Origin: Odontesthes bonariensis
Taxonomy: Eukaryota > Chordata > Actinopteri > Atheriniformes > Atherinopsidae
Length of the DNA stretch: 64,000 bases
NCBI RefSeq assembly: GCF_027942865.1
Contig: NC_134510.1
Span: forward strand, 41,042,946-41,106,945
Direction: 5' to 3'
Shown: positions 11,501 through 61,829 of the stretch, piece after piece
Layout of the letters: every line of letters starts with the position of its first letter
Numbering within the stretch: the stretch's first letter is position 1
Made by a program: the position numbers and the translations under genes
The notes under the pieces: model-generated
The model's input: the letters and a program-made list of their open reading frames with translations, nothing else
What the model was told of the DNA's origin: nothing
Databases searched by the model: none

Positions 11501-14500
11501 TTCCTGCCACACACAGTTCCTGCCACACAGTTCCTGCCACTCACAGTTCCTGCCACACACAGTTCCTGCCACACACAATTCCTGCCACACACAGTTCCTG
11601 CCTCACAGTTCCTGCCTCACAGTTCCTGCCTCACAGTTCCTGCCACACACAGTTCCTGTCGCACAGTTCCTGTCGCACAGTTCCTGACACACACAGTTCC
11701 TGCAACACAGTTCCTGCAACACAGTTCCTGCAACACAGTTCCTGTCGCACAGTTCCTGCCACACAGTTCCTGCCACTCACAGTTCCCGCCACACAGTTCC
11801 TGCCACACACAGTTCCTGCCACACACAGTTCCTGCCACACAGTTCCTGCCACTCACAGTTCCTGCCACTCACAGTTCCTGCCACACACAGTTCCTGGCAC
11901 ACACCGTTCCCGCCACACACAGTTCCTGCCACACACAGTTCCTGCCACACAGAGTTCCTGCCACACACAGTTCCTGCCACACACAGTTCCTGCCTCACAG
12001 TTCCTGCCACACAGTTCCTGCGACTCACAGTTCCTGCCACACACAGTTCCTGCCTCACACAGTTCCTGCCACACACAGTTCCTGCCTCACACAGTTCCTG
12101 CCACACACAGTTCCTGCCACACACAGTTCCTGCCACACACAGTTCCTGCCTCACAGTTCCTGCCACTCACAGTTCCTGCCTCACAGTTCCTGCCACACAC
12201 AGTTCCTGCCACATAGTTCCTGCAACACAGTTCCTGCAACACAGTTCCTGCAACACAGTTCCTGCCACTGGACTTCAGTTATTGATTATCTGCAGAATAA
12301 TCGGGTAACCGGATGCAGCTGATCCTCCGAGGTGAAACCAAGGAGGAGGAAAGTTAATTATTTATCCAACAAAGCGATCTGCTGGCTTCCCTGAACAGCT
12401 GCCAGTAGATCGAAGGTAAGCAGAGCAGGTCAGCTGCCCTGAAAGGGGATTTTAGCTCAGATCAGCGTTTCCTGTGGAAACCGTGGTTCATTGGTGGAGC
12501 TGCTGTTTCACACATTAACAGCTTGTTGTGTTCCGTGTTGTGTTTCTGTGTCGCCGCCGTTTCACCCCGACTCTGTGTGTGTTGCAGGGGAAGCCCCTGA
12601 AGGAGTCTCTGGGGGAGATCGCGTACGCCGCCTCCTTCCTGGAGTGGTTCTCAGAGGAGGCTCGGCGGGTCTACGGAGACATCGTTCCGTCTCCCGCCAA
12701 AGACCGAAAGATCCTGCTCCTCAAGCAGCCTGTGGGCGTGGCCTCCATCATCACGCCGGTGAGCGCCGTCTGAAACGCAAAGTTAGCCTCGGAGATGAGG
12801 GGACGGCAGAAAGGTTATTCTACCAGCTTTCTGAGGACAAAGTTTACTCAGACATGTTGTTTCTGATGAACATTAAGTTGAATTATCCAAAGAAAAGTTT
12901 ACAAAGAAAAAGTTATCAATTATTCCATCAATTAATGAGATCAGAAAAACTTAAGCAATAAATTTAAAAGAGAAAAAATTAGGTTATGAAGTGAAAAGTT
13001 GTTCCAGAGCTGACTAGGAGTTACCTAGGAGTTAAGTTAGCATTAGCTCACTAGGAGTTAAGTTAGCATTAGCTCACTTGAAGTTAAGTTAGCATCGGCT
13101 CACTAGGAGTTAAGTTAGCATCAGCTCACTAGGAGTTAAGTTAGCATCGGCTCACTAGGAGTTAAGTTAGCATCGGCTCACTAGGAGTTAAGTTAGCATC
13201 GGCTCACTAGGAGTTAAGTTAGCATCAGCTCACTAGGAGTTAAGTTAGCATCAGCTCACTAGGAGTTAAGTTAGCATCGGCTCACTAGGAGTTAAGTTAG
13301 CATCGGCTCACTAGGAGTTAAGTTGGCATCGGCTCACTAGCAGTTAAGTTAGCATCGGCTCACTAGGAGTTAAGTTAGCATTAGCTCACTTGGAGTTAAG
13401 TTGGCATCGGCTCACTAGGAGTTAAGTTAGCATCGGCTCACTAGGAGTTAAGTTAGCATTAGCTCACTAGCAGTTAAGTTAGCTGATGGAGCTGATGGAT
13501 GCTCTGCTCTGTTTGTTCTCAGTGGAACTTCCCCAGCGCCATGATCACCAGGAAGGTTGGAGCCGCTCTGGCAGCCGGCTGCACGGTGGTGGTGAAACCA
13601 GCTGAGGACACGCCGCTGTCGGCCCTGGCTCTGGCAGAGGTCGGTCCTCCGAACATCTGGAGCAGCTGCAGCCGCTCAGAGCCTCGCTTCTGCTGTGAGA
13701 CCTGTCCTGGAGCTCATTGTGACATCACTTCCTGTCTTCTCTGCAGCTGGCGGAGCAGGCGGGCATCCCAGCGGGGGTCTTCAACGTGGTTCCCTGCTCC
13801 AGAGAGAAGACCCCGTCCGTCGGGCAGGTCCTCTGCACCGATTCTCTGGTGGCCAAAATCTCCTTCACTGGATCCACGGCCACGGGGAAGGTGAGACCCT
13901 GAGCTAATGCTAACTTAACTGCTAGTGAGCTAATGCTAACTTAACTGCTAGTGAGCTAATGCTAACTTAACTGCTAGTGAGCTAATGCTAACTTAACTGC
14001 TAGTGAGCTAATGCTAACTTAACTGCTAGTGAGCTAATGCTAACTTAACTGCTAGTGAGCTAATCCTAACTTAACTGTTAGTGAGCTGATGCTAACTTAA
14101 CTCCTAGTGAACTAATGCTAACTTACCTGCTAGAGAGCTAATGCTAGCTTAACTGCTAGTGAGCCGATGCTAACTTAAGTCCTCGTGAGCCGTTGCTAAC
14201 TTAACTCCTAGTGAGCTGATGCTAACTTAACTGTTAGTGAGCTAATGCTAACTTAACTCCTAGTTAGCTAATGCTGACTTAACTCCTGGTTAGCTAATGC
14301 CAACTTAATTCTCTCAGGTGCTGTTAAAAATGGCTGCCGACACTGTGAAGAAGGCGTCCATGGAGCTCGGTGGCCACGCCCCCTTCATCGTGTTCGACAG
14401 CGCCGACGTTGACAAGGCGGTGGGCGGAGCCATGGGCTCTAAGTTCAGGAACTCTGGACAGGTGAGACGAGTCGCAGCTGCTGACGGCATGGGCGCAGAA

Positions 14501-17500
14501 CCCCGAACTGAACGCTTTCCTCCGCCCGCAGACGTGCGTGTGCTCCAACCGCTTCCTGGTTCAGAGCGCCGTCTATGACCGCTTCATGGCCAAACTGGGA
14601 CAAGCGATGGACGCCGAGCTCCGGGTGGGTCACGGCTCGGAGCCCGAGACCACGCAGGGGCCGCTCATCAACACCAGAGCTGCAGAGAAGGTAACCCGCC
14701 TGATATTTCTGCTTCTGGACATGTGGGACAGATGGGGACGGAGGGACAGATGGGGACAGGTGGTACAGATGGGACGGATGGGGACAAATGGGATGGATGG
14801 GACCCTTCCTGTTGGAGGTCGGATCAGGACACCAGATATGTCCCATCATGGTGTGTCCTGCTCTAAACTGTCCCATCATGGTTTGTCCTGCTGTAAACTG
14901 TCCCTCATGGTTTGTCCTGCTCTAAACTGTCCCTCAGTATGTCCCATCATGGTTTGTCCTGCTCTAAACTGTCCCTCATGGTTTGTCCTGCTGTAAACTG
15001 TCCCTCAGTATGTCCCTCGTCCTGCTCTAAACTGTCTCATCATGGTTTGTCCTGCTCTAAACTGTCCCTCAGTTTGTCCCATCATGGTTTGTCCTGCTCT
15101 AAACTGTCCCACCATGGTTTGTCCCGCTCTAAACTGTCCCTCATGGTTTGTCCCGCTCTAAACTGTCCCATCATGGTTTGTCCCGCTCTAAACTGTCCCA
15201 TCATGGTTTGTCCCGCTCTCAACTGTCCCATCATGGTTTGTCCCGCTCTAAACTGTCCCACCATGGTTTGCCCTGCTCTAAACTGTCCCATCATGGTTTG
15301 TCCTGCTCTAAACTGTCCCACCATGGTTTGTCCTGCTCTAAACTGTCCCATCATGGTTTGTCCTGCTGTAAACTGTCCCTCAGTATGTCCCTCGTCCTGC
15401 TCTAAACTGTCCCATCATGGTTTGTCCTGCTCTAAACTGTCCCTCAGTTTGTCCCATCATAGTTTGTCCTGCTCTAAACTGTCCCATCATGGTTTGCCCT
15501 GCTCTAAACTGTCCCATCATGGTTTGTCCTGCTCTAAACTGTCCCATCATGGTTTGTCCCGCTCTAAACTGTCCCATCATGGTTTGCCCTGCTCTAAACT
15601 GTCCCATCATGGTTTGTCACGCTCTAAACTGTCCCACCATGGTTTGCCCTGCTCTAAACTGTCCCATCATGGTTTGTCCTGCTCTAAACTGTCCCATCAT
15701 GGTTTGTCCCGCTCTAAACTGTCCCATCATGGTTTGTCCCGCTCTAAACTGTCCCTCATGGTTTGTCCTGGTCTAAACTGTCCCATCATGGTTTGTCCTG
15801 CTCTAAACTGTCCCATCATGGTTTGTCCTGCTCTAAACTGTCCCATCATGGTTTGTCCCGCTCTAAACTGTCCCATCATGGTTTGTCCTGCTCTAAACTG
15901 TCCCATCATGGTTTGCCCTGCTCTAAACTGTCCCATCATGGTTTGTCCTGCTCTAAACTGTCCCATCATGGTTTGTCCCGCTCTAAACTGTCCTATCATG
16001 GTTTGTCCTGCTCTAAACTGTCCCTCATGGTTTGTCCCGCTGTAAATTGTCCCATCATGGTTTGCCCTGCTCTAAACTGTCCCATCATGGTTTGTCCCGC
16101 TCTAAACTGTCCCATCATGGTTTGTCCCGCTCTAAACTGTCCCATCATGGTTTGTCCTGCTCTAAACTGTCCCATCATGGTTTGTCCCTCTCTAAACTGT
16201 CCCATCATGGTTTGTCCCGCTCTAAACTGTCCCATCATGGTTTGTCCTGCTCTAAACTGTCCCATCATGGTTTGTCCTGCTCTAAACTGTCCCATCATGG
16301 TTTGTCCCGCTCTAAACTGTCCCATCATGGTTTGTCCTGCTCTAAACTGTCCCTCATGGTTTGTCCCGCTGTAAATTGTCCCATCATGGTTTGTCCTGCT
16401 CTAAACTGTCCCTCATGGTTTGTCCCGCTGTAAATTGTCCCTCAGGTGGTGCAGCAGATCGAGGACGCCGTGTCCCGCGGCGCCAGGCTGCTGAAAGGCG
16501 GGAAGCGCCTGGAAGGTTCCTTCATGCAGCCGACGCTGCTGGCCGACGTCACCGCGGACATGTTGTGCACCAAGGAGGAAACCTTTGGGCCGCTGGTCCC
16601 CGTCATCAGGTCGGTTCACAGGAAAGTTCTTCATGAAGCAGTTCGGTTTCATATGAGACGGACAAGAAGGAGTTCATTTGCTTCAAACCGTCTTCAGAGC
16701 AGTGGGTCCCTAACTTTTAGTCCCAAATAGCCCTCAAACACGTGTTATCAGTCATATCATGTAAAATATCTGTAAATGTGCATAATTATTTACTAATGCC
16801 AAATACAATGGGACTCACTAGGAGTTAAGTTGGCATCGGCTCACGAGGAGTTAAGTTGGCATCGGCTCACGAGGAGTTAAGTTAGCATTAGCTAACGAGG
16901 ACTTAAGTTGGCATCGGCTCACGGGGAGTTAAGTTAGCATTAGCTCATGAGGACTTAAGTTGGCATCGGCTCACGGGGAGTTAAGTTAGCATTAGCTCAC
17001 GAGGAGTTAAGTTGGCATCGGCTCACGGGGAATTAAGTTAGCATTAGCTCACTAGGAGTTAAATTAGCATTAGCATCGGCTCACTAGGAGTTAAGTTGGC
17101 ATCGGCTCACTAGGAGTTAAGTTGGCATCGGCTCACTAGGAGTTAAGTTGGCATCGGGTCACTAGGAGTTAAGTTAGCATCGGCTCACAGGGAGTTAAGG
17201 TAGCATTAGCTAACGAGGACTTAAGTTGGCATCGGCTCACGGGGAGTTAAGTTAGCATTAGCTCATGAGGACTTAAGTTGGCATCGGCTCACGGGGAGTT
17301 AAGTTAGCATTAGCTCACGAGGACTTAAGTTGGCATCGGCTCACGGGGAATTAAGTTAGCATTAGCTCACTAGGAGTTAAATTAGCATTAGCATCGGCTC
17401 ACTAGGACTTAAGTTGGCATCGGCTCACTAGGAGTTAAGTTGGCATCGGCTCACGAGGAGTTAAGTTAGCATTAGCTCACGAGGACTTAAGTTAGCATCG

Positions 17501-19684
17501 GCTCACAGGGAGTTAAGTTAGCATTAGCTAACGAGGACTTAAGTTAGCATCGGCTCACGGAGAGTTAAGTTAGCATTAGCTCAGTAGGAGTTAAGTTGGC
17601 ATCGGCTCAGTAGGAGTTAAGTTGGCATCGGCTCAGTAGGAGTTAAGTTGGCATCGGCTCAGTAGGAGTTAAGTTGGCATCGGCTCAGTAGGAGTTAAGT
17701 TAGCATCGGCTCAGTAGGAGTTAAGTTGGCATCGGCTCAGTAGAAGTTAAGTTGGCATCGGCTCACGGAGAGTTAAGTTAGCATCTGCTCAGTAGGAGTT
17801 AAGTTGGCATCGGCTCAGTAGAAGTTAAGTTGGCATCGGCTCAGTAGGAGTTAAGTTGGCATCGGGTCACTAGGAGTTAAGTTAGCATCGGCTCAGTAGG
17901 AGTTAAGTTAGCATCGGCTCAGTAGGAGTTAAGTTGGCATCGGCTCAGTAGAAGTTAAGTTGGCATCGGCTCACGGAGAGTTAAGTTAGCATTAGCTCAG
18001 TAGGAGTTAAGTTGGCATCGGCTCAGTAGGAGTTAAGTTGGCATCTGCTCAGTAGGAGTTAAGTTGGCATCGGCTCAGTAGAAGTTAAGTTGGCATCGGC
18101 TCAGTAGAAGTTAAGGTGGTATCGGCTCAGTAGGAGTTAAGTTGGCATCGGCTCAGTAGGAGTTAAGTTGGCATCGGCTCAGTAGGAGTTAAGTTGGCAT
18201 CGGCTCAGTAGGAGTTAAGTTGGCATCGGCTCAGTAGGAGTTAAGTTGGCATCGGCTCAGTAGGAGTTAAGTTGGCATTAGCTCACGGGGAGTTAAGTTA
18301 GCGTTAGATAACTTCTCCCAACAGGACGGACTCTGGCTGAGGATTGTTGACATCCTCGGTCCAACTGAAGCCATAGGACGGTAACTTTCATGATACTGTC
18401 AGCTGACAGTTTTTTTCTCTTTTCTTTCGGTGGTGGGTTGTCGGCAGACTCTGCTCTGATGGTTTGCTCCGCACCAGAAAGAGCTCCAATTTCCCTCTTG
18501 CTCTGTTTTAATGTTGTCATTCAGCCTTTGATGTGTCTCATAACTCAGCGAAATATGGGTTTTCTGAGGATTTCTTTTTAAATAATTGTTTTTAGGTATA
18601 TAGTTAGCCTCTGTATTATAAAACGAGTGCGTACTGATAAAGTAAATTAAAAAATAATTATTTTTGTGTAGTTGTATATTGTAATAATAACGTGTGGTGT
18701 TCACCATCCCACGGCACAGCGTTTGGGAACCACTGCTGTAGAGGAATGAAACCTCTCAGGAAAAAAGTGTGCTTTTAGCTAAATGAAGTGGATCCAGCTG
18801 CCGACCAATCGCTTCCTGTCTGATTTGCAGGTTCGACACAGAAGAGGAGGCTCTGGCCATCGCTAACGCCTCAAACGTGGGGCTGGCAGGTGAGGGCGTC
18901 TCCGGAACCATGAATGAATATTCCAGTCAGGCTTCCCTCATCTGCTGCTGACTTACCGGTTAAACTTCAACCTCTTTAATAGCACACAGAATAAAAACAA
19001 GCAGGATGAGTCATTTACCAACTGACCGGGACCTGTATTATCCAGTTTGTTGTTCCATTGTCCTGCTGTTCACTGTCCACATCTGTTGGTTTACATTTCC
19101 CTCCGAAGCTTTAATGAATAAAAGCAGCAGGTGTTAAAACTCAGTGAATCCACCTCAGAGTAACAACACCACATGTTACACTGAGTCATTATTTATGGAA
19201 CACAAACTGAGACAGAACTAAGTGAACCCCTGGGTAGCTCTTGGGTTTCTGACCTCGGGGTGACCTTTAACCTTTAACATGCTAACTGCGGCCTGTAGCT
19301 CCTGGGTTTCTGACCTTGGGGTGACCTTTAACCTTTAACATGCTAACTGAGGCCTGTAGCTCCTGGGTTTCTGACCTTGGGGTGACCTTTAACCTTTAAC
19401 CTGCTAACTGAGGCCTGTAGCTCCTGGATTTCTGACCTTGGGGTGACCTTTAACCCGTCTCTCTGCCCTCAGGTTACTTCTTCTCGCAGGACGTGAGTCA
19501 GATCTGGCGGGTGGCGGAGGCGTTGGAGGTCGGGATAGTCGGGGTCAACGAGGGCCTCCTGTCCACGCCTGAGGCGACCTTTGGCGGAGTCAAGCAGTCC
19601 GGTTTGGGCCGCGAGGGCGCCAAGTACGGCATCGAGGAGTACCTGGAGGTGAAGTACATGTGCTTCGGGGGCCTGAAGCCCTGA
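5541..19684 (+). CDS. aldh5a1: succinate-semialdehyde dehydrogenase, mitochondrial (10 exons, complete)
   Basis: Oxidises succinate semialdehyde to succinate with NAD+, the last step of GABA breakdown, in the mitochondrial matrix. Exons: 5541-5828, 7953-8036, 12588-12758, 13523-13639, 13747-13890, 14318-14461, 14532-14690, 16446-16609, 18831-18889, 19473-19684. All introns are GT-AG, phases agree, and they sum to 513 codons plus stop (human 535, also ten exons). Visible marks: an Arg-rich N-terminal presequence; WNFPSAM and FTGSTATGK for NAD binding; MELGGHAPF with the general-base Glu (exon 6); TCVCSN with catalytic Cys (14535-14537) and the second Cys (14541-14543) of the known redox disulfide pair (exon 7); EETFGPL; and C-terminal [16 protein letters not shown]. 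Odd: the conserved ESGKPL reads ECGKPL across the exon 2/3 junction. Introns 2, 3, 5, 7, 8 and 9 are filled with tandem arrays. Start chosen as the first in-frame ATG giving a presequence; an in-frame Met exists at 5610. Confidence 0.96.
6600..7610 (-). mobile_element. L1-like LINE, C-terminal ORF2 fragment
   Basis: Minus-strand translation carries [19 protein letters not shown], then, after a frame break near 7186, [17 protein letters not shown] and later [21 protein letters not shown]. This is the order of the ORF2 C-terminal region in fish L1 elements (HR-x-TP, C...H...WKC). A 5'-truncated relic in aldh5a1 intron 1, ending in an AT-rich tail near 6600. Confidence 0.75.
7750..7915. mobile_element. 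LINE 3' tail with (GATA)n
   Basis: GATAGATAGATAAGTACTTT followed by ATTCAACCCAATTTGGGAAA is the typical 3' end of fish Rex/RTE-type LINEs: a GATA run, then 'actttattgatccc...gggaaatt'. No coding sequence. It lies just upstream of aldh5a1 exon 2. Confidence 0.55.
8225..12270. repeat. 4-kb minisatellite of 14/16-bp units in aldh5a1 intron 2
   Basis: About 270 units of TTCCTGCCACACACAG, TTCCTGCCACTCACAG or the 14-bp TTCCTGCCACACAG, with rarer CCGCC and GCAAC variants. Units contain no stop codons on either strand, which produces a 1,351-codon open frame (8161-12216) that is not a gene: it has no conserved content and lies inside an intron whose flanking exons join in frame. Each unit reads like a short pyrimidine tract followed by CACAG. 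Confidence 0.97.
13015..13485 (+). repeat. 26-bp minisatellite in aldh5a1 intron 3
   Basis: About 18 copies of a unit made of AGTTAAGTTAGCATCGGCTC plus ACTAGG, with TTAGC and TTGGC variants. The same family appears inverted at 13.9 kb and in direct orientation at 16.8 kb. Confidence 0.95.
13905..14316 (-). repeat. 26-bp minisatellite in aldh5a1 intron 5, inverted relative to intron 3
   Basis: About 15 copies of GAGCTAATGCTAACTTAACT plus GCTAGT, the reverse complement of the intron 3 unit. The last copy (GCTAATGCCAACTTAATTCT) runs directly into the CTCAG acceptor of exon 6. Confidence 0.93.
14830..16445. repeat. 30-bp minisatellite in aldh5a1 intron 7, containing the exon 8 acceptor
   Basis: About 53 units of TCCCATCATGGTTTGTCCTG plus CTCTAAACTG, with shorter units where CCCATCATGG is CCCTCATGG. 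The final unit, CTGTAAATTGTCCCTCAG, is itself the 3' splice site used for exon 8 at 16446. Several internal units also end TGTCCCTCAG (14930s, 15000s, 15060s, 15370s, 15440s). The 30-bp period keeps all frames open. Confidence 0.95.
16813..18305 (+). repeat. 26-bp minisatellite in aldh5a1 intron 8
   Basis: About 57 units of the family seen in intron 3. The 5' half mixes CACGAGGAG, CACGGGGAG and CACTAGGAG variants; the 3' half is dominated by CAGTAGGAG, showing local homogenisation of sub-families. Confidence 0.95.
18395..18410. other. 16-bp perfect palindrome
   Basis: ACTGTCAGCTGACAGT is its own reverse complement. It lies in the right arm of the hAT-like element. No function is implied; it contains an E-box core. 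Confidence 0.5.
19200..19455 (+). repeat. 61-bp tandem repeat, about 4 copies, abutting exon 10 acceptor
   Basis: Copies contain GGGTTTCTGACCTTGGGGTG, ACCTTTAACC and GCTAACTGAGG. The last copy grades into the pyrimidine tract and CAG of aldh5a1 exon 10 (19473). Confidence 0.9.
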
Positions 19685-22540: not shown

Positions 22541-23155
22541 GGCTGTGTTCGAAACTACACACTACATACTTCCATACTGATCGATCAGACAGTATGCAGA
22601 GCGTTTACCCACAATGCATCTCGCTCCTGCCCGAGCCGAAATCAGCCGGCCTGAAGCTGATTTCCCTTAAGCTCTAAACTCTGTAAACTTTAGCAACATT
22701 TGAAACATTTTCAGGTGAGAAAGTAGTCGTTTAGATCCCCAACGTGTTGAAAACCTGACAAAATACCGGCTGTTTACAATTTTGTTCCCACGAATTCGGC
22801 GCTACTAAAGCTAGCCACAGTGAGCAACGCACTTCCTGTTATTTTCACAAAATAAAATACCCGTTGCCTTTTATCATAGGGAAAGCCATTAGGATACAAT
22901 TGGTGCTTTTGTTTTGGAAACAGGAAGTGAACCTACCCTCGTTGTAGCTAGCTTGAAACTGACGTTTTGACAGGAAATGACGATCGGCGACGTCACGTTA
23001 CGTTGCATCTTGGGTAGTTGAGTATGAGTAGTAACCTCATGATGCATACCCAACATTTAGGAGAATCTAGTATGCATCCGGGAACTTCTGCTTACTCAAA
23101 CTCGCATACTAACTCAGAAAGTTAGTAGGAGAAGTATGCGGTTTGGTACACAGCC
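22541..23155 (-). mobile_element. MITE family 'GGCTGTGTTC', full-length copy B (inverted relative to A)
   Basis: 615 bp. Left end GGCTGTGTTCGAAAC; right end on the other strand GGCTGTGTACCAAAC. It contains conserved GTTTACCCACAATGCATCTC, GAAACATTTTCAGGTGAGAA and GTGACGTCGCCGATCGTCAT (minus-strand reading). No open reading frame. No clear target duplication flanks it. Next to its left end is a short precursor of the TACTACATACT repeat. Confidence 0.85.
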
Positions 23156-29700: not shown

Positions 29701-32700
29701 ATTCTATACATATCTATGGTTATCACATGTGACCCGGGGGCCCCGGTGCCCGGGGCCGTACCTGATGTGGGAGCGGCCCTGCAGCGCTCGGACCTGGACG
29801 TCCCCGTTCAGGACGTGGATCAGAGCGGCGAGCTGTCGGACCACCGTGTCCCTCTGAGCCACGCTCACCTGGGACACCGGGACCAGCATCTCCAGCTCCA
29901 CCTGCTCCCCCCCGCCGGGCTCTACGGAGACAGAGGAGGGACACACTGAGACACACTGAGACACAGTGAGACAGAGGAGGGACACACTGAGACAGAGGAG
30001 GGACACACTGAGACACAGTGAGACAGAGGAGGGACACACTGAGACACAGTGAGACAGAGGGGGACACACTGAGACACAGTGAGACAGAGGAGGGACACAC
30101 TGAGACACACTGAGACAGAGGAGGGACACACTGAGACACACTGAGACAGAGGAGGGACACACTGAGACACAGTGAGACAGAGGAGGGACACACTGAGACA
30201 CACTGAGACAGAGGAGGGACACACTGAGACACACTGAGACAGAGGAGGGACACACTGAGACACAGTGAGACAGAGGGGGACACAGTGAGACAGAGGAGGG
30301 ACACACTGAGACACAGTGAGACAGAGGGGGACACAGTGAGACACACTGAGACAGAGGAGGGACACACTGAGACACAGTGAGACAGAGGGGGACACACTGA
30401 GACACAGTGAGACAGAGGAGGGACACAGTGAGACACACTGAGACAGAGGAGGGACACACTGAGACAGAAGAGGGACACACTGAGACACAGTGAGACAGAG
30501 GGGGACACACTGAAACACACTGAGACAGAGGAGGGACACACTGAGACACACTGAGACAGAGGAGGGACACACTGAGACAGAGGAGGGACACACTGAGACA
30601 CAGTGAGACAGAGGAGGGACACAGTGAGACACACTGAGACAGGGGGGGGGACACTGAGACAGAGGAGGGACACACTGAGACACACTGAGACAGAGGAGGG
30701 ACACACTGAGACAGAGGAGGGACACACTGAGACAGAGGAGGGACACACTGAGACACACTGAGACAGAGGAGGGACACACTGAGACACACTGAGACAGAGG
30801 AGGAACACACTGAGACAGAGGAGGGACACACTGAGACAGAGGAGGGACACACTGAGACAGAGGGGGGACACAGTGAGACAGAGGAGGGACACACTGAGAC
30901 AGAGAGGGGACACACTGAGACAGAGGGGGGACACAGTGAGACAGAGGGGGACACACTGAGACAGAGGAGGGACACAGTGAGATAGAGGAGGGACACACTG
31001 AGACAGAGGAGGGACACAGTGAGACAGAGGAGGGACACACTGAGACACACTGAGACAGAGGAGGGACACACAGACAGAGGGGGGACACTGAGACAGAGGA
31101 GGGACACAGTGAGACACACTGAGACACAGTGAGACAGAGGGGGACACACTGAGACACAGTGAGACAGAGGAGGGACACACTGAGACACACTGAGACAGAG
31201 GAGGGACACACTGAGACACACTGAGACAGAGGAGGGACACACTGAGACACAGTGAGACAGAGGAGGGACACACTGAGACACACTGAGACAGAGGAGGGAC
31301 ACACTGAGACACACTGAGACAGAGGAGGGACACACTGAGACACAGTGAGACAGAGGGGGACACAGTGAGACAGAGGAGGGACACACTGAGACACAGTGAG
31401 ACAGAGGGGGACACAGTGAGACACACTGAGACAGAGGAGGGACACACTGAGACACAGTGAGACAGAGGGGGACACACTGAGACACAGTGAGACAGAGGAG
31501 GGACACAGTGAGACACACTGAGACAGAGGAGGGACACACTGAGACAGAAGAGGGACACACTGAGACACAGTGAGACAGAGGGGGACACACTGAAACACAC
31601 TGAGACAGAGGAGGGACACAATGAGACACACTGAGACAGAGGAGGGACACACTGAGACAGAGGAGGGACACACTGAGACACAGTGAGACAGAGGAGGGAC
31701 ACAGTGAGACACACTGAGACAGGGGGGGGGACACTGAGACAGAGGAGGGACACACTGAGACACACTGAGACAGAGGAGGGACACACTGAGACAGAGGAGG
31801 GACACACTGAGACAGAGGAGGGACACACTGAGACACACTGAGACAGAGGAGGGACACACTGAGACACACTGAGACAGAGGAGGAACACACTGAGACAGAG
31901 GAGGGACACACTGAGACAGAGGAGGGACACACTGAGACAGAGGGGGGACACAGTGAGACAGAGGAGGGACACACTGAGACAGAGAGGGGACACACTGAGA
32001 CAGAGGGGGGACACAGTGAGACAGAGGGGGACACACTGAGACAGAGGAGGGACACAGTGAGATAGAGGAGGGACACACTGAGACAGAGGAGGGACACAGT
32101 GAGACAGAGGAGGGACACACTGAGACACACTGAGACAGAGGAGGGACACACAGACAGAGGGGGGACACTGAGACAGAGGAGGGACACAGTGAGACACACT
32201 GAGACACATTGAGACAGAGGGGGGACACAGAGACAGAGGAGGGACACACTGAGACAGAGGAGGCACACAGTGAGACAGAGGAGGGACACACTGAGACAGA
32301 GGAGGGACACAGTGAGACAGAGGAGGGAGACACTGAGACAGAGGGGGGACACACTGTGACACACTGAGACAGAGGGGGGACACAGAGACAGAGGAGGGAC
32401 ACAGTGAGAAACACTGAGACAGAGGGGGGACACAGAGACAGAGGAGGGACACAGTGAGACACACTGAGACAGAGGGGGGACACACTGTGACACACTGAGA
32501 CAGAGGGGGACACAGAGACAGAGGAGGGACACAGTGAGACACACTGAGACAGAGGGGAGAATCACTGAGACAGAGGAGGGACACACTGAGACAAAATTAG
32601 ACAGAGGAGGGACACAGTGAGACACACTGAGACACACTGAGACAGAGGAGGGACACGCTGAGACACACTGAGACAGAGGAGGGACACAGTGAGACAGAGT

Positions 32701-35700
32701 AGGGACACACTGAGACAGAGGAGGGACACAGCGAGACAGAGGAGGGACACACTGTGACACACTGAGACAGAGGGGGGACACAGAGACAGAGGAGGGACAC
32801 ACTGAGACAGAGGGGGGACACAGAGACAGAGGAGGGACACAGTGAGACACACTGAGACAGAGGAGGGACACACTGAGACAGAGGGGGGGGACACAATGAG
32901 ACACACTGAGACAGAGGGGGGACACAGTGAGACATAGTGAGACACACTGAGACAAAGGGGGGACACACTGAGACAGAGGAGGGCCACAGAGGAGGGACAC
33001 ACGGAGACAGAGGGGACACACACTGAGACACACTGAGACAGAGGGGGGACACACTGAGACACACTGAGACAGAGGGGGGACACAGTGAGACAGAAGAGGG
33101 ACACACTGAGACAGAGGGGGGACACACTGAGACAGAGGAGGGACACACTGAGACAGAGGGGGGACACACTGAGACACACTGAGACAGAGGAGGGACACAC
33201 TGAGACAGAGGAGGGACACACTGAGACACACTGAGACAGAGGGGGGACACACTGAGACAGAGGAGGGACACACTGAGACAGAGGGGGGACACACTGAGAC
33301 ACACTGAGACAGAGGAGGGACACACTGAGACAGAGGAGGGACACACTGAGACACACTGAGACACACTGAGACAGAGGGGGGACACACTGTGACACACTGA
33401 GACAGAGGGGGACACAGAGACAGAGGAGGGACACAGTGAGACACACTGAGACAGAGGGGAGAATCACTGAGACAGAGGAGGGACACACTGAGACAAAATT
33501 AGACAGAGGAGGGACACAGTGAGACACACTGAGACACACTGAGACAGAGGAGGGACACGCTGAGACACACTGAGACAGAGGAGGGACACAGTGAGACAGA
33601 GTAGGGACACACTGAGACAGAGGAGGGACACAGCGAGACAGAGGAGGGACACACTGTGACACACTGAGACAGAGGGGGGACACAGAGACAGAGGAGGGAC
33701 ACACTGAGACAGAGGGGGGACACAGAGACAGAGGAGGGACACAGTGAGACACACTGAGACAGAGGAGGGACACACTGAGACAGAGGGGGGGGACACAATG
33801 AGACACACTGAGACAGAGGGGGGACACAGTGAGACATAGTGAGACACACTGAGACAAAGGGGGGACACACTGAGACAGAGGAGGGCCACAGAGGAGGGAC
33901 ACACGGAGACAGAGGGGACACACACTGAGACACACTGAGACAGAGGGGGGACACACTGAGACACACTGAGACAGAGGGGGGACACAGTGAGACAGAAGAG
34001 GGACACACTGAGACAGAGGGGGGACACACTGAGACAGAGGAGGGACACACTGAGACAGAGGGGGGACACACTGAGACACACTGAGACAGAGGAGGGACAC
34101 ACTGAGACAGAGGAGGGACACACTGAGACACACTGAGACAGAGGGGGGACACACTGAGACAGAGGAGGGACACACTGAGACAGAGGGGGGACACACTGAG
34201 ACACACTGAGACAGAGGAGGGACACACTGAGACAGAGGAGGGACACACTGAGACACACTGAGACAGAGGGGGGACACACTGAGACAGAGGAGGGACACAC
34301 TGAGACAGAGGAGGGACACACTGAGACAGAGGAGGGACACACTGAGACACACTGAGACAGAGGAGGGACACACTGAGACACACTGAGACAGAGGGGGGAC
34401 ACACTGAGACAGAGGAGGGACACACTGAGACACACTGAGACAGAGGGGGGATACTAAGACAGAGGAGGGACACACTGAGACAGAGGGGGGATACTAAGAC
34501 AGAGGAGGGACACACTGAGACAGAGGGGGGACACACTGAGACAGAGTGGGGGACACTGAGACAGAGGAGGGACACACTGAGACACACTGAGACAGAGGAG
34601 GGACACACTGAGACAGAGGGGGGACACACTGAGACAGAGGAGGGACACACTGAGACACACTGAGACAGAGGAGGGACACACTGAGACACACTGAGACAGA
34701 GGGGGGACACACTGAGACAGAGGAGGGACACACTGAGACACACTGAGACAGAGGGGGGATACTAAGACAGAGGAGGGACACACTGAGACAGAGGGGGGAT
34801 ACTAAGACAGAGGAGGGACACACTGAGACAGAGGGGGGACACACTGAGACAGAGTGGGGGACACTGAGACAGAGGAGGGACACACTGAGACACACTGAGA
34901 CAGAGGAGGGACACACTGAGACAGAGGGGGGACACACTGAGACAGAGGAGGGACACACTGAGACACACTGAAACAGAGGGGGGACACAGTGAGACAGAGG
35001 GGGGACACACTGAGACAGAGGAGGGACACACTGAGACACACTGAAACAGAGAGGGGACACAGTGAGACAGAGGGGGGACACACTGAGACACACTGAGACA
35101 GAAGGGGGACACCCTGAGACAGAGGGGGGACACAGTGAGACACACTGAGACACACTGAGACAGAGCGGGGACACACTGAGACACACTGAAACAGAGGGGG
35201 GACACAGTGAGACACACTGAGACAGAGGGGGGACACAGTGAGACAGAGGGGGGACACAGTGAGACAGAGGAGGGACACACTGAGACACACTGAAACAGAG
35301 GGGGGACACAGTGAGACAGAGGAGGGACACACTGAGACACACTGAAACAGAGGGGGGACACAGTGAGACAGAGGGGGGACCCCAGCAGTTCTGACCCACC
35401 TGGTCGGACCTCCACGGTGGCCGTGGCGGAGCTGGAGCGGCCCTGGGCGTCGGTCACCCTCAGCTGGAACAGGTAGGTGCCTTCCACCAGGTCAGCCAGG
35501 TACAGAGAGGCCCGGGTCTGTGATCCGAACAGAACCGCCTGCAGAGCAGAACATCTGTGAGCCCAACAGAACCTCCCGCAGAACATCTGTGATCCGAACA
35601 GAACCACCTGCAGAGCAGAACATCTGTGAGCCCAACAGAACCGCCTGCAGAACATCTGTGATCCCAACAGAACATCTGTGAGCCCAACAGAACATCTGTG

Positions 35701-38700
35701 AGCCCAACAGAACATCTGTGAGCCCAACAGAACCGCCTGCAGAACATCTGTGAGCCCAACAGAACATCTGTGATCCCAACAGAACATCTGTGAGCCCAAC
35801 AGAACTGCCTGCAGAGCAGAACATCTGTGATCCCAACAGAACATCTGTGAGCCCAACAGAACCGCCCACAGAGCAGAACATCTGTGATCCCAACAGAACA
35901 TCTGTGAGCCCAACAGAACCGCCCACAGAGCAGAACATCTGTTAGCCCAACAGAACCGCCCACAGAGCAGAACATCTGTGAGCCCAACAGAACCGCCTGC
36001 AGAACATCTGTGAGCCCAACAGAACATCTGTGAGCCCAACAGAACCGCCTGCAGAACATCTGTGATCCGAACAGAACTGCCTGCAGAACATCTTTGAGCC
36101 CAACAGAACATCTGTGAGCCCAACAGAACCGCCCGCAGAACATCTTTGAGCCCAACAGAACATCTGTGAGCCCAACAGAACCGCCTGCAGAACATCTTTG
36201 AGCCCAACAGAACCGCCTGCAGAACATCTGTGAGCCCAACAGAACATCTGTGAGCCCAACAGAACATCTGTGAGCCCAACAGAACCGCCTGCAGAGCAGA
36301 ACATCTGTGAGCCCAACAGAACCGCCTGCAGAACATCTGTGAGCCCAACAGAACCGCCTGCAGAACATCTGTGATCCGAACAGAACCGCCTGCAGAGCAG
36401 AACATCTGTTAGCCCAACAGAACATCTGTGAGCCCAACAGAACATCTGTGAGCCCAACAGAACCGCCTGCAGAACATCTGTGATCCGAACAGAACCGCCT
36501 GCAGAACAGAACATCTGTTAGCCCAACAGAACCGCCTGCAGAACATCTGTGATCCGAACAGAACCGCCTGCAGAGCAGAACATCTGTTAGCCCAACAGAA
36601 CCGCCTGCAGAACAGAACATCTGTGAGCCCAACAGAACCGCCTGCAGAACATCTGTGATCCGAACAGAACCGCCCGCAGAGCAGAACATCTGTCAACCCT
36701 GAGGGTCCCACAGATGCCTCTGGTTCTGGTTCTGTCCTGGTTCTGACCTGGTTCTGGTTTTGATCTGATTCTGACCTGGTTCTGGTTTTGATCTGGTTCT
36801 GACCTGGTTCTGACCAGGTTCTGGTTTTGATCTGGTTCTGATCTGGTTCTGACCTGGTTCTGGTTTTGATCTGGTTCTGACCTGGTTCTGACCAGGTTCT
36901 GGTTTTGATCTGGTTCTGATCTGGTTCTGACCTGGTTCTGGTTTTGATTTGGTTCTGACCTGGTTCTGACCTGGTTCTCATGGTTCTGACCTGGTTCTGA
37001 CCTGGTTCTCATGGTTCTGACCTGGTTCTGACCTGGTTCTGACCAGGTTCTGACCAGGTTCTGGTTTTGATTTGGTTCTGACCTGGTTCTCATGGTTCTG
37101 ACCTGGTTCTGACCTGGTTCTGGTGGTCTATCTTATCTGACCCAGATCCCTGTGTGACTGACCCCGGCTGCAGGACTCTGGCTGTCCCTGGTCCACAGGT
37201 AGTGGACCTGGCTCTGGTCCCCGTCGGTCACGGAGCCCCTGAGGACCAGCGAGTTGTTGGGCAGCGTGAGGCAGTGGCTGCCGCTGGCGTGGGCGACCGG
37301 GGGCCGGCGTGGTCCCTGCAGGCTCCGCCCACCTTCCTCTATCCAGACGCTCAGCAGGGCGCTGTCTGTCGCCCCCTCCTGGTCAGACACCGTCAGTTTG
37401 AAGGTGTAGCGCCCCGCCTGGACACCCGTAACCTTAGCAACCGCCCGATCCGCCTCCTCCAGCTTCATCCCGGAAGGACCGCTGGAGAAACAAGAAGACT
37501 CAGTGAACCAATCAGAGAGACAGGAAGACTCAGTGAACCAATCAGAGAGACAGGAAGACTCAGTGAACCAATCAGAGAGACAGGAAGACTCAGGTGAACC
37601 AATCAGAGAGACAGGAAGACTCAGGTGAACCAATCAGAGAGACAGGAAGACTCAGGTGAACCTATCAGAGAGACAGGAAGACTCAGTGAACCAATCAGAG
37701 AGACAGGAAGACTCAGGTGAACCAATCAGAGAGACAGGAAGACTCAGGTGAACCTATCAGAGAGACAGGAAGACTCAGTGAACCAATCAGAGACCCCGTT
37801 CCTCAGTAAGACAAACAAGATGTCCCACCTGACCACCTCCCACCGGTAGCTGCTGACGCCACGGTCGTCGGTGCTGCCGCTGCCATCGAGCCAGACGTGG
37901 CTCAGCGGGAGAACCAGCCTCCTGTCAGGACCCACGACGGCCAGCGGACCACGGTTTGACCCCCCGACATCTGCTCAGGGAAAAGCCAGCGTTAGCTTGA
38001 TTTGTTGTTACCTTGATTTATACTATATACTACATCCTGCATACTACATCCTACATACTATATACTATATACTGCATACTGTACTCTACATACTGCACAC
38101 TATATACTACATACTTCCATACTACATACTACATACCGCATACTGCAAACTGCATACTACATACCGCACACTACATACTGCAATACTACATACTGCATAC
38201 TACATACCGCATACTGCATACTACATACTGCATACTACATACTGCATACTATATACTGCATACTGTACTCTACATACTGCACACTATATACTACATACTT
38301 CCATACTACATACTACATACCGCATACTGCAAACTGCATTCTACATACCGCACACTACATACTGCAATACTACATACTGCATACTACATACTGCAAACTG
38401 CATTCTACATACCGCACACTACATACTGCATACTACATACTGCATACTACATACCGCACACTACATACTGCAATACTACATACTGCATACTACATACCGC
38501 ATACTGCATACTACATACTATATACTATATACTGCATACTGTACTCTACATACTGCACACTATATACTACATACTTCCATACTACATACTACATACCGCA
38601 TACTGCATACTACATACTGCACACTACATACTGCAATACTACATACTGCACACTACATACTGTATTTACTACATACCGCATTCTACATAATACATACTGC

Positions 38701-58499: not shown

Positions 58500-58606
58500 A
58501 ACAGAGGCCAGAGGCCAGAGAACAGAGGCCAGAGGCCAGAGAACAGAGGCCAGAGGCCAGAGAACAGAGGCCAGAGGCCAGAGAACAGAGGCCAGAGGCC
58601 AGAGAA

Positions 58607-58639
<33 letters not shown>

Positions 58640-58662
58640 AACAGAGGCCAGAGGCCAGAGAA

Positions 58663-58695
<33 letters not shown>

Positions 58696-58697
58696 AA

Positions 58698-58730
<33 letters not shown>

Positions 58731-59348: not shown

Positions 59349-59381
<33 letters not shown>

Positions 59382-59677
59382 AACAGAGGCCAGAGAACAG
59401 AGGCCAGAGGCCAGAGAACAGAGGCCAGAGGCCAGAGAACAGAGGCCAGAGAACAGAGGCCAGAGGCCAGAGAACAGAGGCCAGAGAACAGAGGCCAGAG
59501 AACAGAGGCCAGAGAACAGAGGCCAGAGAACAGAGGCCAGAGGCCAGAGAACAGAGGCCAGAGGCCAGAGAACAGAGGCCAGAGAACAGAGGCCAGAGGC
59601 CAGAGAACAGAGGCCAGAGGCCAGAGAACAGAGGCCAGAGAACAGAGGCCAGAGGCCAGAGAACAGAGGCCAGAGAA

Positions 59678-59710
<33 letters not shown>

Positions 59711-59859
59711 AACAGAGGCCAGAGAACAGAGGCCAGAGGCCAGAGAACAGAGGCCAGAGGCCAGAGAACAGAGGCCAGAGAACAGAGGCCAGAGGCCAGA
59801 GAACAGAGGCCAGAGGCCAGAGAACAGAGGCCAGAGGCCAGAGAACAGAGGCCAGAGAA

Positions 59860-59892
<33 letters not shown>

Positions 59893-61829
59893 AACAGAGG
59901 CCAGAGAACAGAGGCCAGAGGCCAGAGAACAGAGACCAGAGGCCAGAGGCCAGAGAACAGAGACCAGAGGCCAGAGAACAGAGGCCAGAGGCCAGAGAAC
60001 AGAGGCCAGAGAACAGAGGCCAGAGAACAGAGGCCAGAGGCCAGAGAACAGAGGCCAGAGAACAGAGACCAGAGAACAGAGACCAGAGGCCAGAGAACAG
60101 AGAACAGAGGCCAGAGGCCAGAGGCCACTTCTCAGCTGGGCCCAAACAGAGCTCTGCGCTCTGCTGAGGTTCAGGGGGACAAAGTGCTCTGGATGGTACA
60201 CAGACTTTATCAGACAATACATTCAGTTTAGGTTTGTACAGAATCTCTTCTGCCCAATTTTGTTTATAATTTTCAAATAATATTATCTTAATTTGTTTAA
60301 CACTACAGGATCATTTATTTCCATATATGGATTGGAGACCTACTTTGTCCAACGACTATATTTGAGAGGTTCCACAAAAAATTTTTGATGAAATTTGTTG
60401 TGATTTCTAAATAAATCTGAACAGAAAAGACTGATCACATATATGATCTTGAGATTCTTCTTCATGTTTTTTATGTACTGAGTTCTTCTTCTGCAGTTCT
60501 CGGCGCTTCGCTGGAAGGAAACGGCGTGACGCAGCGCCCTCACCTCTGAGGTGGCGTTGACCAGCCTGTCCTTGGCTTTCAGCAGCGTCTCGGCCACCTG
60601 AGCCTTCCTGGACTGCCTCTGCTCCGACACCCGCCGTCCGATCCCCCCGCCGCCTCCGGGCCGCCGGTCGTCCACGCTGGCGGCCCGCCGCACCGACGCC
60701 CTGTGTTTGGTGGGCGTGAGGAGCTGCTGCAGTTTCCCCGCCAGACCCCCCCGGCTCGGGGACGAGACGTTGTTGGAGTTCTCGTCCACCTTGCTGCTCC
60801 GGTGGGCGGAGTCTCTGGCTCCAGCAGGTCTGCAGGTTAGAGGTCAGAGGTCAGAGGTCAGAGGGCGGGGCTGGTCAGATCAAAGCTGCGCACACCTGAG
60901 GTGGACACACTGACTTAAGGACTAATTGGTGTGAAATGGTGTGAATTGGACATTGAATTGGACCAGAGGCAGGTGGACACTGACCTGCCGTCTCTCTCTG
61001 CAGGCCGGCAGCTGCAGGCCGGCTCCGGCTCGGCCGCCTCGGCGCACTCTCTGTAGAAGTTGGAGAGGCAGACCTGACTGCGGGGAACCACCAGGCCTCC
61101 GGGCGGCGGCGGCGTGGAGGTGTCCCGGCGCCCCAGAGGGGGCTTACGGGAGCCGGCGTCCCCGCATCCGTTGGTCCCCGAGTTGTGGAGGAGGGTCTTC
61201 TTGGAGGGTTTGGCCTCTGAGGACGGAGAGGAGGCGTTAGTGGAAAAAATGCCCCTCCAAAAATAAGTAAGAAAGACGTTTTTGCTTGAAATAAGCAAAA
61301 AAATCTGCCAATGGAACTAGTAAAAATCGGCTTGTCAAGATTTCTTGAAATAAAATGTGATATTTAGGACTTTTGAGATAAAAGTGATCTTCAAATTAGC
61401 TTAAAAACCTCTTCAAATTAAAAAATAAAAGCTTCATGTGAAATATGACTCAAAACAATTTGTTTAAGACTTTTTCATTTAACAAGATATTCCAGATGTA
61501 TTGTATTAAAACAAGTCCCTATATCTGACTGAAATGGTACCTGTTAGGCAGTTGTGTCTGATATTAAGTGTAATGAGATACTCAATGAGACAAATATACT
61601 TGGTAAGATTAAAATTTTTTCCAGTGTGGTTCCGACCCGCCCGGGGAAGGCGGCGCTGACGGCGAGCTCTTACTGTCGCTCAGCGTCCTCACGCTGCTCA
61701 GGCTGCTGCTCTTCACCAGCGGACCCGTCAGGGACTCGTGGCTGGAGCTCTCGCTCAGACCGCTCCAGCTGGACTGACGAATCAGGGTGGAGTGGGGGCG
61801 GGGCCTCTGGTCAGGGTCCATCATGACTT
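48643..61829 (-). CDS. dennd4b: DENND4-family Rab guanine-nucleotide exchange factor, C-terminal 11 exons (5' partial)
   Basis: DENND4 proteins activate Rab10 through an N-terminal DENN domain, which lies beyond the right edge. Exons: 61829-61674, 61216-60985, 60829-60544, 57350-57246, 56513-56338, 53061-52905, 52829-52590, 51273-51168, 51094-50929, 50850-50792, 48788-48643 (stop). All are GT-AG and in phase; about 609 codons are present. Visible: Ser-rich linker [19 protein letters not shown]; a double CxxC module (CSLCRSC ... [16 protein letters not shown] ... CPFC) in 56513-56338; [20 protein letters not shown] and [16 protein letters not shown] in 52829-52590; LLWDTLTPD...[19 protein letters not shown]-terminus AFDKKYK...[12 protein letters not shown]...PLEC. 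Family is firm. Paralogue b is inferred from the neighbourhood: human DENND4B is at 1q21, and 1q21- and 6p-type genes share chromosomes in fish. DENND4A or DENND4C is possible. Introns carry large arrays and several transposon relics. Confidence 0.85.
48895..49900 (+). repeat. 20-bp minisatellite, about 50 copies (last DENND4 intron)
   Basis: Units TTAAAGGGACAGTTCTCCTC and TTAAAGGGACAGTTCGCCTC, with some 16-bp units lacking CCTC. Confidence 0.97.
49964..49995. other. perfect 13-bp-stem hairpin
   Basis: TTTCCTGTTGAGC, loop CATTTT, then GCTCAACAGGAAA. It lies between the direct and inverted blocks of the 20-bp minisatellite. Confidence 0.85.
50255..50450 (-). repeat. inverted block of the 20-bp minisatellite, about 10 copies
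   Basis: Units GAGGCGAACTGTCCCTTTAA and GAGGAGAACTGTCCCTTTAA are the reverse complement of the 48.9-kb array, 350 bp away from it. Confidence 0.95.
50726..50764. repeat. 12-bp tandem repeat, about 3 copies
   Basis: GCACATCTGTGT repeated just downstream (minus strand) of exon 50850-50792. Confidence 0.85.
51298..52480. repeat. CTGCTGTCACATGACTGTCA minisatellite (DENND4 intron)
   Basis: Mixture of CTGCTGTCACATGA and CTGTCACATGACC(T)CAAA steps, several dozen copies. Each step carries TCACATGA, an E-box/M-box-type motif; TCAGATGA variants dominate at 52.2-52.4 kb. It begins about 25 bp from the acceptor of exon 51273-51168. Confidence 0.95.
53262..54236. repeat. AATTGGTGTGAATTGGACTC minisatellite (DENND4 intron)
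   Basis: About 50 steps of 16-21 bp: AATTGGTGTGAATTGGACT with optional CT, and TTTGGTG or GATTGGTG variants. It is flanked by a ~50-bp direct repeat at 53208-53258 and 54333-54383, and followed by an L2-tail-like sequence (54240-54300). Confidence 0.95.
54413..54757. mobile_element. dispersed ~345-bp element, copy 1
   Basis: Contains ACAAGTC-type, ATTTCAAGAAATCTTGACAA and TTCCATTGGCAGATTTTTTT. It matches 61.24-61.63 kb in reverse orientation. One end reads CACTGGAAAAAAATC. Non-coding; a MITE-like family in DENND4 introns. Confidence 0.8.
54960..56215 (-). mobile_element. L1-like LINE ORF2 C-terminal fragment, interrupted by a MITE
   Basis: The minus strand reads (56215-56064) [20 protein letters not shown] and IQYK, then after the insertion [31 protein letters not shown], and later sequence to about 54960. 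The CWKC...H motif is that of L1 ORF2 C-termini. Stop codons make it a relic. It sits in the DENND4 intron upstream (genomically left) of exon 56513-56338. Confidence 0.75.
55465..56063. mobile_element. 599-bp TTAA-flanked MITE with ~105-bp inverted repeats
   Basis: TTAA at 55461-55464 and 56064-56067 flank long inverted repeats. Left arm AGGGATGGTTCGGAGTAGAT...; right arm on the other strand AGTGATACTCCGGAGTAGAT..., both continuing TCACCCTGGGGTCATTTGAA through to GGCTGAACATCAGCTGA. TTAA duplication and an AG start suggest the Kolobok type; piggyBac is the alternative. No coding capacity. Confidence 0.85.
57605..57880 (+). mobile_element. L2-like LINE reverse transcriptase fragment
   Basis: Plus-strand codons read SAPTVRNL, a stop, then [20 protein letters not shown] and [20 protein letters not shown] and [17 protein letters not shown], the conserved C-terminal part of L2/Rex RT. 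Relic in a DENND4 intron. Confidence 0.85.
57880..58248. other. repeat-derived intronic sequence
   Basis: Begins with CTCTTTAAAGTGCCTTTAG, the LINE tail motif also seen at 54.24 kb, then AT-rich sequence in which I recognise nothing. Confidence 0.4.
58249..58347. repeat. interstitial telomere-like repeat
   Basis: TTAACCCTAACCCTA followed by several TGTTACCCTAACCCTT steps. Mixture of the vertebrate CCCTAA hexamer and a derived CCCTTTGTTA form. Confidence 0.85.
58370..60125. repeat. 7-bp two-letter minisatellite (DENND4 intron)
   Basis: About 250 heptamers, essentially only two kinds, CAGAGGC and CAGAGAA (rare CAGAGAC), in irregular order. All three minus-strand frames are open for about 600 codons; none is a gene. 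Confidence 0.97.
60838..60863. repeat. 7-bp repeat forming a splice pyrimidine tract
   Basis: AGAGGTC repeated three to four times. On the minus strand, CTCTGACCTCTGACC immediately precedes CTAACCTGCAG, the acceptor of exon 60829-60544. Confidence 0.8.
61240..61627. mobile_element. dispersed ~345-bp element, copy 2 (inverted)
   Basis: Reverse orientation of the 54.4-kb copy. Ends AGTGGAAAAAATGC and, on the other strand, CACTGGAAAAAATT, a short imperfect inverted repeat. Ends 47 bp from the donor of exon 61829-61674. Confidence 0.8.

Follow-up and report, generated by a model that had tools for sequence, protein, structure and literature searches.

Intronic minisatellites in contact with 3' splice sites in a subtelomeric zone of the Odontesthes bonariensis genome

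Introns of aldh5a1, KIAA0319 and DENND4, three neighboring but unrelated genes of Odontesthes bonariensis, carry tandem arrays that run up to the acceptor of the next exon. This arrangement raises the question of whether 3' splice sites are places where minisatellites arise or places where they stop. An earlier note, made from the letters alone, named seven such acceptors. It read the repeat unit in several of them as a copy of the pyrimidine tract with its AG, and it proposed that asymmetric tracts may seed expansion, leaving exons preceded by many decoy acceptors. The stretch analyzed, referred to as the window, comprises 64,000 bp (contig C6:41,042,946-41,106,945) and lies 1.13 Mb short of the end of a 42.2-Mb contig. 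It holds three genes:

aldh5a1, plus strand: 10 exons, 513 codons open, E=1.4e-225 to the mitochondrial SSADH 2w8n
KIAA0319, minus strand: 14 exons, open coding sequence, Pfam KIAA0319 domains
DENND4, 3' half, minus strand: 11 exons in the window, open coding sequence

The part of DENND4 inside the window has no Pfam match, and the DENN domains identified by Pfam belong to the 5' half of the gene, beyond the window. In these open models, the seven exons begin where the earlier note had placed them: aldh5a1 exons 6, 8, and 10 at 14318, 16446, and 19473; KIAA0319 exons 7, 8, and 9 at 37481, 35538, and 29921; and DENND4 exon 3 at 60829.

Of the 64,000 bp of the window, 31,556 (49%) consist of tandem arrays longer than 50 bp. 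Tandem repeats also account for 18,407 bp of the adjoining 30,000 bp and for 16,639 bp of a 40,000-bp stretch of C23 that lies about 0.55 Mb from the contig start. Fifteen 10-kb places sampled elsewhere, picked by hand and not randomly drawn, contain 5,092 bp of repeat in 150,000 bp (3.4%). Within this sample, repeats are concentrated near chromosome ends, as the two places less than 3.5 Mb from a contig end hold 4,179 bp in 20,000 bp and the other 13 hold 913 bp in 130,000 bp; the rank correlation of repeat content with distance to the end across all 15 places is not significant (rho -0.32, p=0.24). Unit counts were taken over 945 Mb in 187 contigs and are lower bounds. The unit of the array in KIAA0319 intron 9 is dispersed, with 1,664 matches genome-wide, and for the matches listed, on contigs of known length, its 18-mer lies within 2 Mb of a contig end except on C16. 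The window belongs to a subtelomeric zone in which minisatellites expand freely and fill introns, and arrays cover at least 0.6 of the intron in 15 of its 22 array-bearing introns. Human VNTRs are likewise enriched subtelomerically and provide a parallel of long-unit tandem repeats near chromosome ends, although the abstract of that report, unlike the present case, draws no link to splice acceptors (PMC7608644).

The arrays that bear on the question are located in the window, in the 5' half of DENND4, and in KIAA0319L, the paralogue of KIAA0319 on C23:

13900..14308, plus strand: 26-bp array of a dispersed family, filling aldh5a1 intron 5 (before exon 6)
14839..16441, plus strand: 30-bp-unit array of 1.6 kb, filling aldh5a1 intron 7
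19234..19455, plus strand: 61-bp array, ending 17 nt upstream of aldh5a1 exon 10
29940..35380, minus strand: 5.4-kb array of the CCTCCTCTGTCTCAGTGTGTC type, 99% of KIAA0319 intron 8
35400..35538, minus strand: KIAA0319 exon 8, coding, source of the repeated exon bases
35517..36680, minus strand: exon-spanning array at KIAA0319 exon 8, units of 20, 32, and 37 bp
37485..37793, minus strand: 30/31-bp-unit array, most of KIAA0319 intron 6
60834..60864, minus strand: 7-bp array, 4.4 copies, 31 bp, by the DENND4 exon 3 acceptor
67966-71071 in window numbering (C6:41,110,911-41,114,016): exon-spanning array of 3.1 kb at DENND4 exon N
KIAA0319L, array p7: 587 bp, acceptor match to -3, ending at the AG
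KIAA0319L, array f: 1.9 kb, ending at the AG, one mismatch between -30 and -3, looser beyond

Each acceptor (-30..+30) was aligned to its array, using only array sequence 40 nt or more from the site. For seven acceptors among 65 introns, this remote sequence aligns without gaps over 26-59 nt, two of them at exon-spanning arrays and five at arrays that leave just the last 2-4 bases of the intron. One exon-spanning array is that of KIAA0319 exon 8, whose longest unit joins 15 intron bases, including the AG, to the first 22 coding bases. Tandem Repeats Finder (TRF) leaves a gap of 0 nt at this acceptor and extends the array 22 nt into the exon, and 51 of the 52 positions in [-30,+22] match the remote array. 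A 22-base pattern of the unit, with up to 2 mismatches allowed, has 23 genome-wide matches, all of which lie here and include the true site, and the control has 0. KIAA0319L has an exon boundary at the same place (..SPAAG / DVLNNSDH.. vs ..SPAAG / AVLFGSQT..), in a protein alignment that is ungapped around the boundary and 46% identical overall, and its intron at this boundary is 112 bp long with no array. Because the paralogue has this boundary without an array, the coding bases of KIAA0319 were copied into the intron and not the reverse. At DENND4 exon N, all 59 positions from -30 to +29 match the remote array, the unit consists of the acceptor plus 29 coding bases, and 80 of 80 genome-wide matches fall at its own locus. 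This exon encodes VCYRILMQL.. within a PPR match (residues 699-739, the exon starting at 702), which points to copying from exon into intron in this gene as well.

The five remaining arrays stop just before the exon. The match to the remote array reaches -5 at aldh5a1 exon 8, with TCAG left over, -4 at KIAA0319 exon 7, with CAG left over, and -3 at KIAA0319 exon 9, with AG left over (TRF gaps of 4, 3, and 18 nt, respectively); the two KIAA0319L arrays complete the set. At aldh5a1 exon 8, TGTCCCTCAG is also present in five upstream copies of the array. Genome-wide matches of the units are confined to their own loci at aldh5a1 exon 8 (39/39), KIAA0319 exon 7 (5/5, one being the acceptor itself), and KIAA0319L p7 (11/11), and the 133 matches of the KIAA0319 exon 9 unit lie on a single strand, all in its own array among the matches listed. 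At the level of sequence, identity and single-locus units establish the exon-spanning step, with the array-free paralogue boundary as further support in KIAA0319, and in the five other arrays the matches show the repeated stretch to be the end of the intron without its final 2-4 bases. A single-locus unit indicates local growth, yet being confined to one locus is not specific to acceptors, given that one non-acceptor control array is nearly private (94 of 95 matches at its own locus) and the intron 9 unit is dispersed.

Other arrays near acceptors have different affinities. The aldh5a1 exon 6 array (TRF gap of 9 nt) matches its acceptor only to -7, and its 26-mer occurs in 463 copies genome-wide (187 forward and 276 reverse), on at least 11 contigs among the matches listed. 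The same 26-mer recurs in opposite orientation in two other aldh5a1 introns (window 13025-13483 and 16814-18299). Because the family is present in so many copies, in both orientations and in other introns, the exon 6 array is not a copy of its own acceptor. An acceptor-built origin is likewise ruled out for the aldh5a1 exon 10 array (TRF gap of 17 nt), where the match reaches only -18; its unit is similar to that of a DENND4 intron array that runs opposite to its gene. At DENND4 exon K, the acceptor matches its own array to -7, and 30 of 63 matches of the 12-mer are local, with a relative on C17. The 31-bp array at DENND4 exon 3 (TRF gap of 4 nt) is too short to tell from an ordinary pyrimidine tract. 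The arrays and exon starts named in the earlier note are thus confirmed, but they do not form one class: four of the seven arrays are acceptor-built or acceptor-ended, those at aldh5a1 exons 6 and 10 drop out, and the DENND4 case is minor. Its reading that some units copy the acceptor is supported by the unit at KIAA0319 exon 8, which includes the AG, and by three other arrays that lack just the final 2-4 bases.

Across the 46 arrays of at least 60 bp, the acceptor of the array's own intron is the best match among 65 acceptors in nine (0.7 expected), namely the seven cases above plus the arrays at aldh5a1 exon 6 and DENND4 exon K, and the intron's own donor is the best match in six (0.7 expected). 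Among arrays more than 40 nt from the site, none of 32 has its own acceptor as the best match and 1 of 35 has its own donor. Contact with an acceptor in part already implies likeness to it.

Array position was compared with a null in which all arrays of one intron form one rigid block that is uniformly placed. Cut-offs of 5, 10, 20, 25, and 50 nt were looked at, and the p-values are uncorrected for that. An array is present in 22 of the window's 32 introns. It comes to 5 nt or less from the acceptor in four of them (1.4 expected, p=0.04) and from the donor in none; within 25 nt, the counts are nine (5.8 expected, p=0.05) and four. Once the seven named cases are removed, the 15 remaining introns show two arrays within 25 nt of an acceptor and two within 25 nt of a donor (1.9 expected). 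The positional claim is weak in the window alone, largely because many arrays almost fill their introns.

The comparison was extended to a new set of 33 introns. It consists of 30 kb with the 5' half of DENND4 (16 introns, 10 with arrays, counting the exon O-P intron that crosses the window end) and 40 kb with most of KIAA0319L (17 introns, nine with arrays). Exon boundaries in this set were placed by inspection of reading frames and splice signals, with vertebrate homologues as a guide and with the arrays visible, hence not blind, and they were checked by open joined frames and Pfam; one of the two genes is the paralogue of a gene in the window. Of the 19 array-bearing introns, six have an array no more than 5 nt from the acceptor (1.08 expected, p=0.0002) and one has an array equally close to the donor, so that the preference for contact at acceptors over donors recurs in introns outside those covered by the earlier note. 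The counts for acceptor and donor are seven and two within 10 nt, eight (4.6 expected, p=0.03) and five within 25 nt, and 10 (7.8 expected, p=0.11) and eight within 50 nt; the preference fades past 25 nt. The DENND4 5' part alone (10 array introns) has four of each within 25 nt. Collagen exons were also considered as a genome-wide exon set and dropped, as many of their best matches fall in long open frames that may be minisatellites translated as if they were protein.

In the pooled 65 introns, 41 with arrays, contact within 5 nt occurs at 10 acceptors (2.5 expected, p=0.00006) and at one donor, where the array is a TG dinucleotide run. The array is closer to the acceptor in 22 introns and closer to the donor in 18, and a general tendency of arrays toward acceptors is not supported by these numbers. 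Because the imbalance is 10 to one within 5 nt but only 22 to 18 overall, the signal is a contact class at acceptors, not a general attraction.

These observations are probably best explained by a subtelomeric zone that contains both dispersed repeat families and private local arrays, a minority of the local ones having grown on a 3' splice site. Two kinds of array coexist: dispersed families that land anywhere in an intron, and arrays of a single place that grew locally. In the exon-spanning pair, a segment made of the end of the intron and 22-29 coding bases from the exon start underwent tandem duplication, and amplification brought it to tens of copies. The likely seed would be slippage, or unequal exchange, involving short direct repeats located at the junction; GTGTTACAG lies on either side of the junction at DENND4 exon N, as does GTTCTG at KIAA0319 exon 8. 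Such structures offer a mutational route for the start of subtelomeric minisatellites. In the five AG-ended arrays, selection would halt the array at the AG, which presumably could not be overwritten because the exon needs it and the repeat supplies the pyrimidine tract and, usually, a branch-site motif, so that such a unit could take the place of everything upstream of the AG. For these arrays, growth toward the AG from elsewhere in the intron fits equally well as birth there. A general sense-pyrimidine bias of intronic arrays was rejected, and because only 13 of 24 window arrays exceed a sense pyrimidine fraction of 0.5, there is no evidence in the window for an asymmetric tract as a universal seed.

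The simplest competing explanation is intron filling only, in which arrays begin at any point in an intron and expand until they meet splicing signals that halt them, the acceptor playing no special part; we consider the chances of this account evenly balanced. The high coverage of window introns and the near parity of arrays closer to acceptors and to donors are what it predicts, and dispersed families account for aldh5a1 introns 3, 5, and 8 and KIAA0319 intron 9. It gives no reason for units to include coding bases, as found in two cases, nor for the excess of contacts at acceptors over donors within 5 nt.

A related explanation, to which we assign slightly less than an even chance, holds that arrays arise at random and that only those whose units supply a branch site and a pyrimidine tract are tolerated up to the AG. 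Likeness to the acceptor would then be a result of survival and not of origin. This selection filter is consistent with the five arrays that leave just the last 2-4 intron bases and with the excess of sense over antisense yTnAy motifs in the eight arrays that lie 10 nt or less from an acceptor (Wilcoxon p=0.016). Compared with the other 38 arrays, these eight have a higher sense pyrimidine fraction (0.64 vs 0.52, p=0.04) and more sense yTnAy per 100 nt (3.9 vs 1.8, p=0.04), which fits the local-growth reading as well; with a 30-nt limit (13 vs 33 arrays), both differences are weaker (p=0.10 and p=0.05, respectively). The two exon-spanning units are beyond the reach of such a filter, however, and its branch-motif statistics are weak, with one array of this type, KIAA0319L p7, containing no yTnAy at all.

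At the other extreme, subtelomeric 3' splice sites could be preferred birthplaces of minisatellites, by way of junction direct repeats, R-loops, or splicing-coupled breaks, and many genes would then have tens of identical competing acceptors chosen by position only. This stronger version of the local-growth reading is unlikely. A detection artefact, in which TRF extends pyrimidine-rich arrays into ordinary tracts, is more doubtful still. Short arrays do contribute to the signal, since four of the 10 pooled contacts within 5 nt are arrays or dinucleotide runs below 60 bp and three of the six in the new introns are arrays below 50 bp. Nevertheless, arrays of at least 100 bp still make contact within 5 nt of the acceptor in six of 35 pooled introns (1.9 expected, p=0.007) and in three of 15 new introns (0.71 expected, p=0.03), with none at donors in either set, and the long ungapped matches at the seven acceptors involve remote parts of the arrays. 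An assembly artefact with collapsed or invented repeats is very improbable, as units vary from copy to copy in many arrays and all four gene models stay open across them, even though the analysis rests on the assembly.

The local-growth reading of the exon-spanning pair has a counterpart in the mirages of amphioxus, in which tandem repeats extend across intron-exon boundaries of Adh3, globin, and PGBD5 genes (PMC3087553, PMC3902484). In mirages, as here, a minisatellite-like unit spans the exon-intron boundary and many copies keep AG/GT signals. The amphioxus globin gene BflGb6 has its intron end and exon start duplicated, as in the two cases here, and the Adh3 units of 10-72 bp overlap the unit sizes found in this region. 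KIAA0319 exon 8 and DENND4 exon N both have a unit over the boundary and retain the splice signal in 19 and 64 copies, respectively, and by structure they appear to belong to the mirage kind. The five AG-ended arrays have no unit over the boundary and are not mirages by that definition. Mirages affect both boundaries, whereas the arrays described here affect essentially acceptors only: duplication of both 5' and 3' boundaries, which is not a strict requirement, was not found in the 41 array introns. In BflGb6, units of 150-160 bp occur in 3 or 6 copies, compared with units of 20-41 bp in tens of copies here. Large copy number, acceptor bias, and the subtelomeric setting distinguish the present arrays. 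We read the exon-spanning class as the acceptor-biased, vertebrate form of mirages. An exon edge duplicated into an intron is also a step in intron-gain models. Introner-like elements, whose dispersed copies would each introduce a new intron, were rejected as an alternative identity, as the acceptor-spanning units are single-locus and the intron position at KIAA0319 exon 8 is common to the paralogue.

Vertebrate parallels are also known. In the human IFI6/G1P3 gene, a minisatellite yields multiple splice donors; the unit acts as a splice signal there as it may here, with the donor involved instead of the acceptor. Human internal tandem repeats in duplicated genes, some located at exon-intron boundaries, have units of about 30 bp in about 4 copies on average, half of them in coding sequence, according to the part of the report consulted (PMC2812944). 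They share with the present arrays a minisatellite expansion at an exon boundary that alters gene structure, and they differ in that the reported outcomes include exon elongation and new introns (PMC2812944). The literature covered was mainly open-access papers, and no claim is made that vertebrate cases are unpublished.

The upstream copies in the exon-spanning arrays are candidate decoy acceptors. Sites were scored with a position weight matrix (PWM) built from 22 clean window acceptors, with a threshold of 9.6. A cruder acceptor-like score (256 sense, 0 antisense) was dropped, as 244 of its sites came from two arrays (172 and 72) and the PWM disagreed. Strong decoys were found in one of the 24 window arrays scored, that of KIAA0319 intron 7 (20 sense, 0 antisense), and none of the others has a site above threshold; the many decoys that the earlier note expected as a common result are therefore rare in the window. 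At KIAA0319 exon 9, the best array site and the true site (8.9 and 6.8) both fall below 9.6, and upstream of KIAA0319 exons 7 and 9 there is no near copy of the respective -10..+6 segment. Decoys thus appear real where the unit contains the AG and minor otherwise. At KIAA0319 exon 8, the best decoy scores higher than the true site (12.3 vs 11.4), 3 copies are identical over -20..+10, the 19 AG-bearing near copies are those of -10..+6 with up to 2 mismatches, and the upstream frame is open for 290 codons. The DENND4 exon N array has 49 upstream copies with the same 30 bases from -20 to +10 as the true site, and the 64 AG-bearing copies are counted by the same rule. The closest identical core (-8..+6) lies 71 nt upstream, and the distances of 59 sites are spread nearly evenly over the three frames (22, 19, and 18). 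Because 49 copies share 30 bases exactly, local sequence cannot tell the spliceosome which site to use. The true site is probably kept by position: it is the final copy, and exon definition would pair it with the donor downstream of the exon. DENND4 exon N offers a natural, repeated test of 3' splice site choice.

AGTATGT-type 7-bp arrays in four places begin 40-44 bp from the start of CAGAGCGTTTACCCACAATGCAT, the terminal motif of an interspersed element:

Arrays of the AGTATGT type near CAGAGCGTTTACCCACAATGCAT
window 62518-64000, continuing to 66733
73947-75122, in window numbering extended into the next 30 kb
3814-5333, in the joined coordinates of L021-L022 (40 kb of C23 holding most of KIAA0319L, the paralogue of KIAA0319)
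17847-17878, in the same joined coordinates

The arrangement at these four places looks as if the end of the element had seeded the minisatellite. Two observations count against such seeding: a similar 7-bp array at 38020-39353 has no CAGAGCGTTTACCCACAATGCAT-type motif close by, and motifs of this type at 22597 and 24464 have no 7-bp array called adjoining them.

In KIAA0319, exons 5 and 6 are separated by an intron (window 37970-39463) of which a 7-bp array makes up 89%; judging by the domain order, further domains would presumably lie at this position. The KIAA0319 model contains two K319L-like PKD stretches, versus five in KIAA0319L (Pfam), a deficit that may reflect either domain loss or an assembly gap.

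Among the 41 array-bearing introns, donor contact (≤5 nt) occurs only in KIAA0319L, where the exon b donor sits within a TG run (GTGTGTGTG; L022 of C23, 1115-1199, or 11115-11199 in joined coordinates).

Two arrays of a single DENND4 intron have one 21-bp unit in common, in opposite orientations:

Arrays of the 21-bp unit in one DENND4 intron
window 48903-49898, orientation opposite to that of the second array
window 50252-50441

A related 21-mer occurs in both orientations in an upstream DENND4 intron (75447-76371 and 77110-79147).

In aldh5a1, the dispersed 26-mer unit filling intron 5 (window 13891-14317) carries, in sense, donor-like (GTGAGC), branch-like (TGCTAAC) and acceptor-like (CTAG) motifs, all within a single unit. 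Upstream of the gene, window 600-4600 holds a long, broken coding-like region that, judged by eye, looks like the decayed gene of a mobile element or a decayed multicopy gene.
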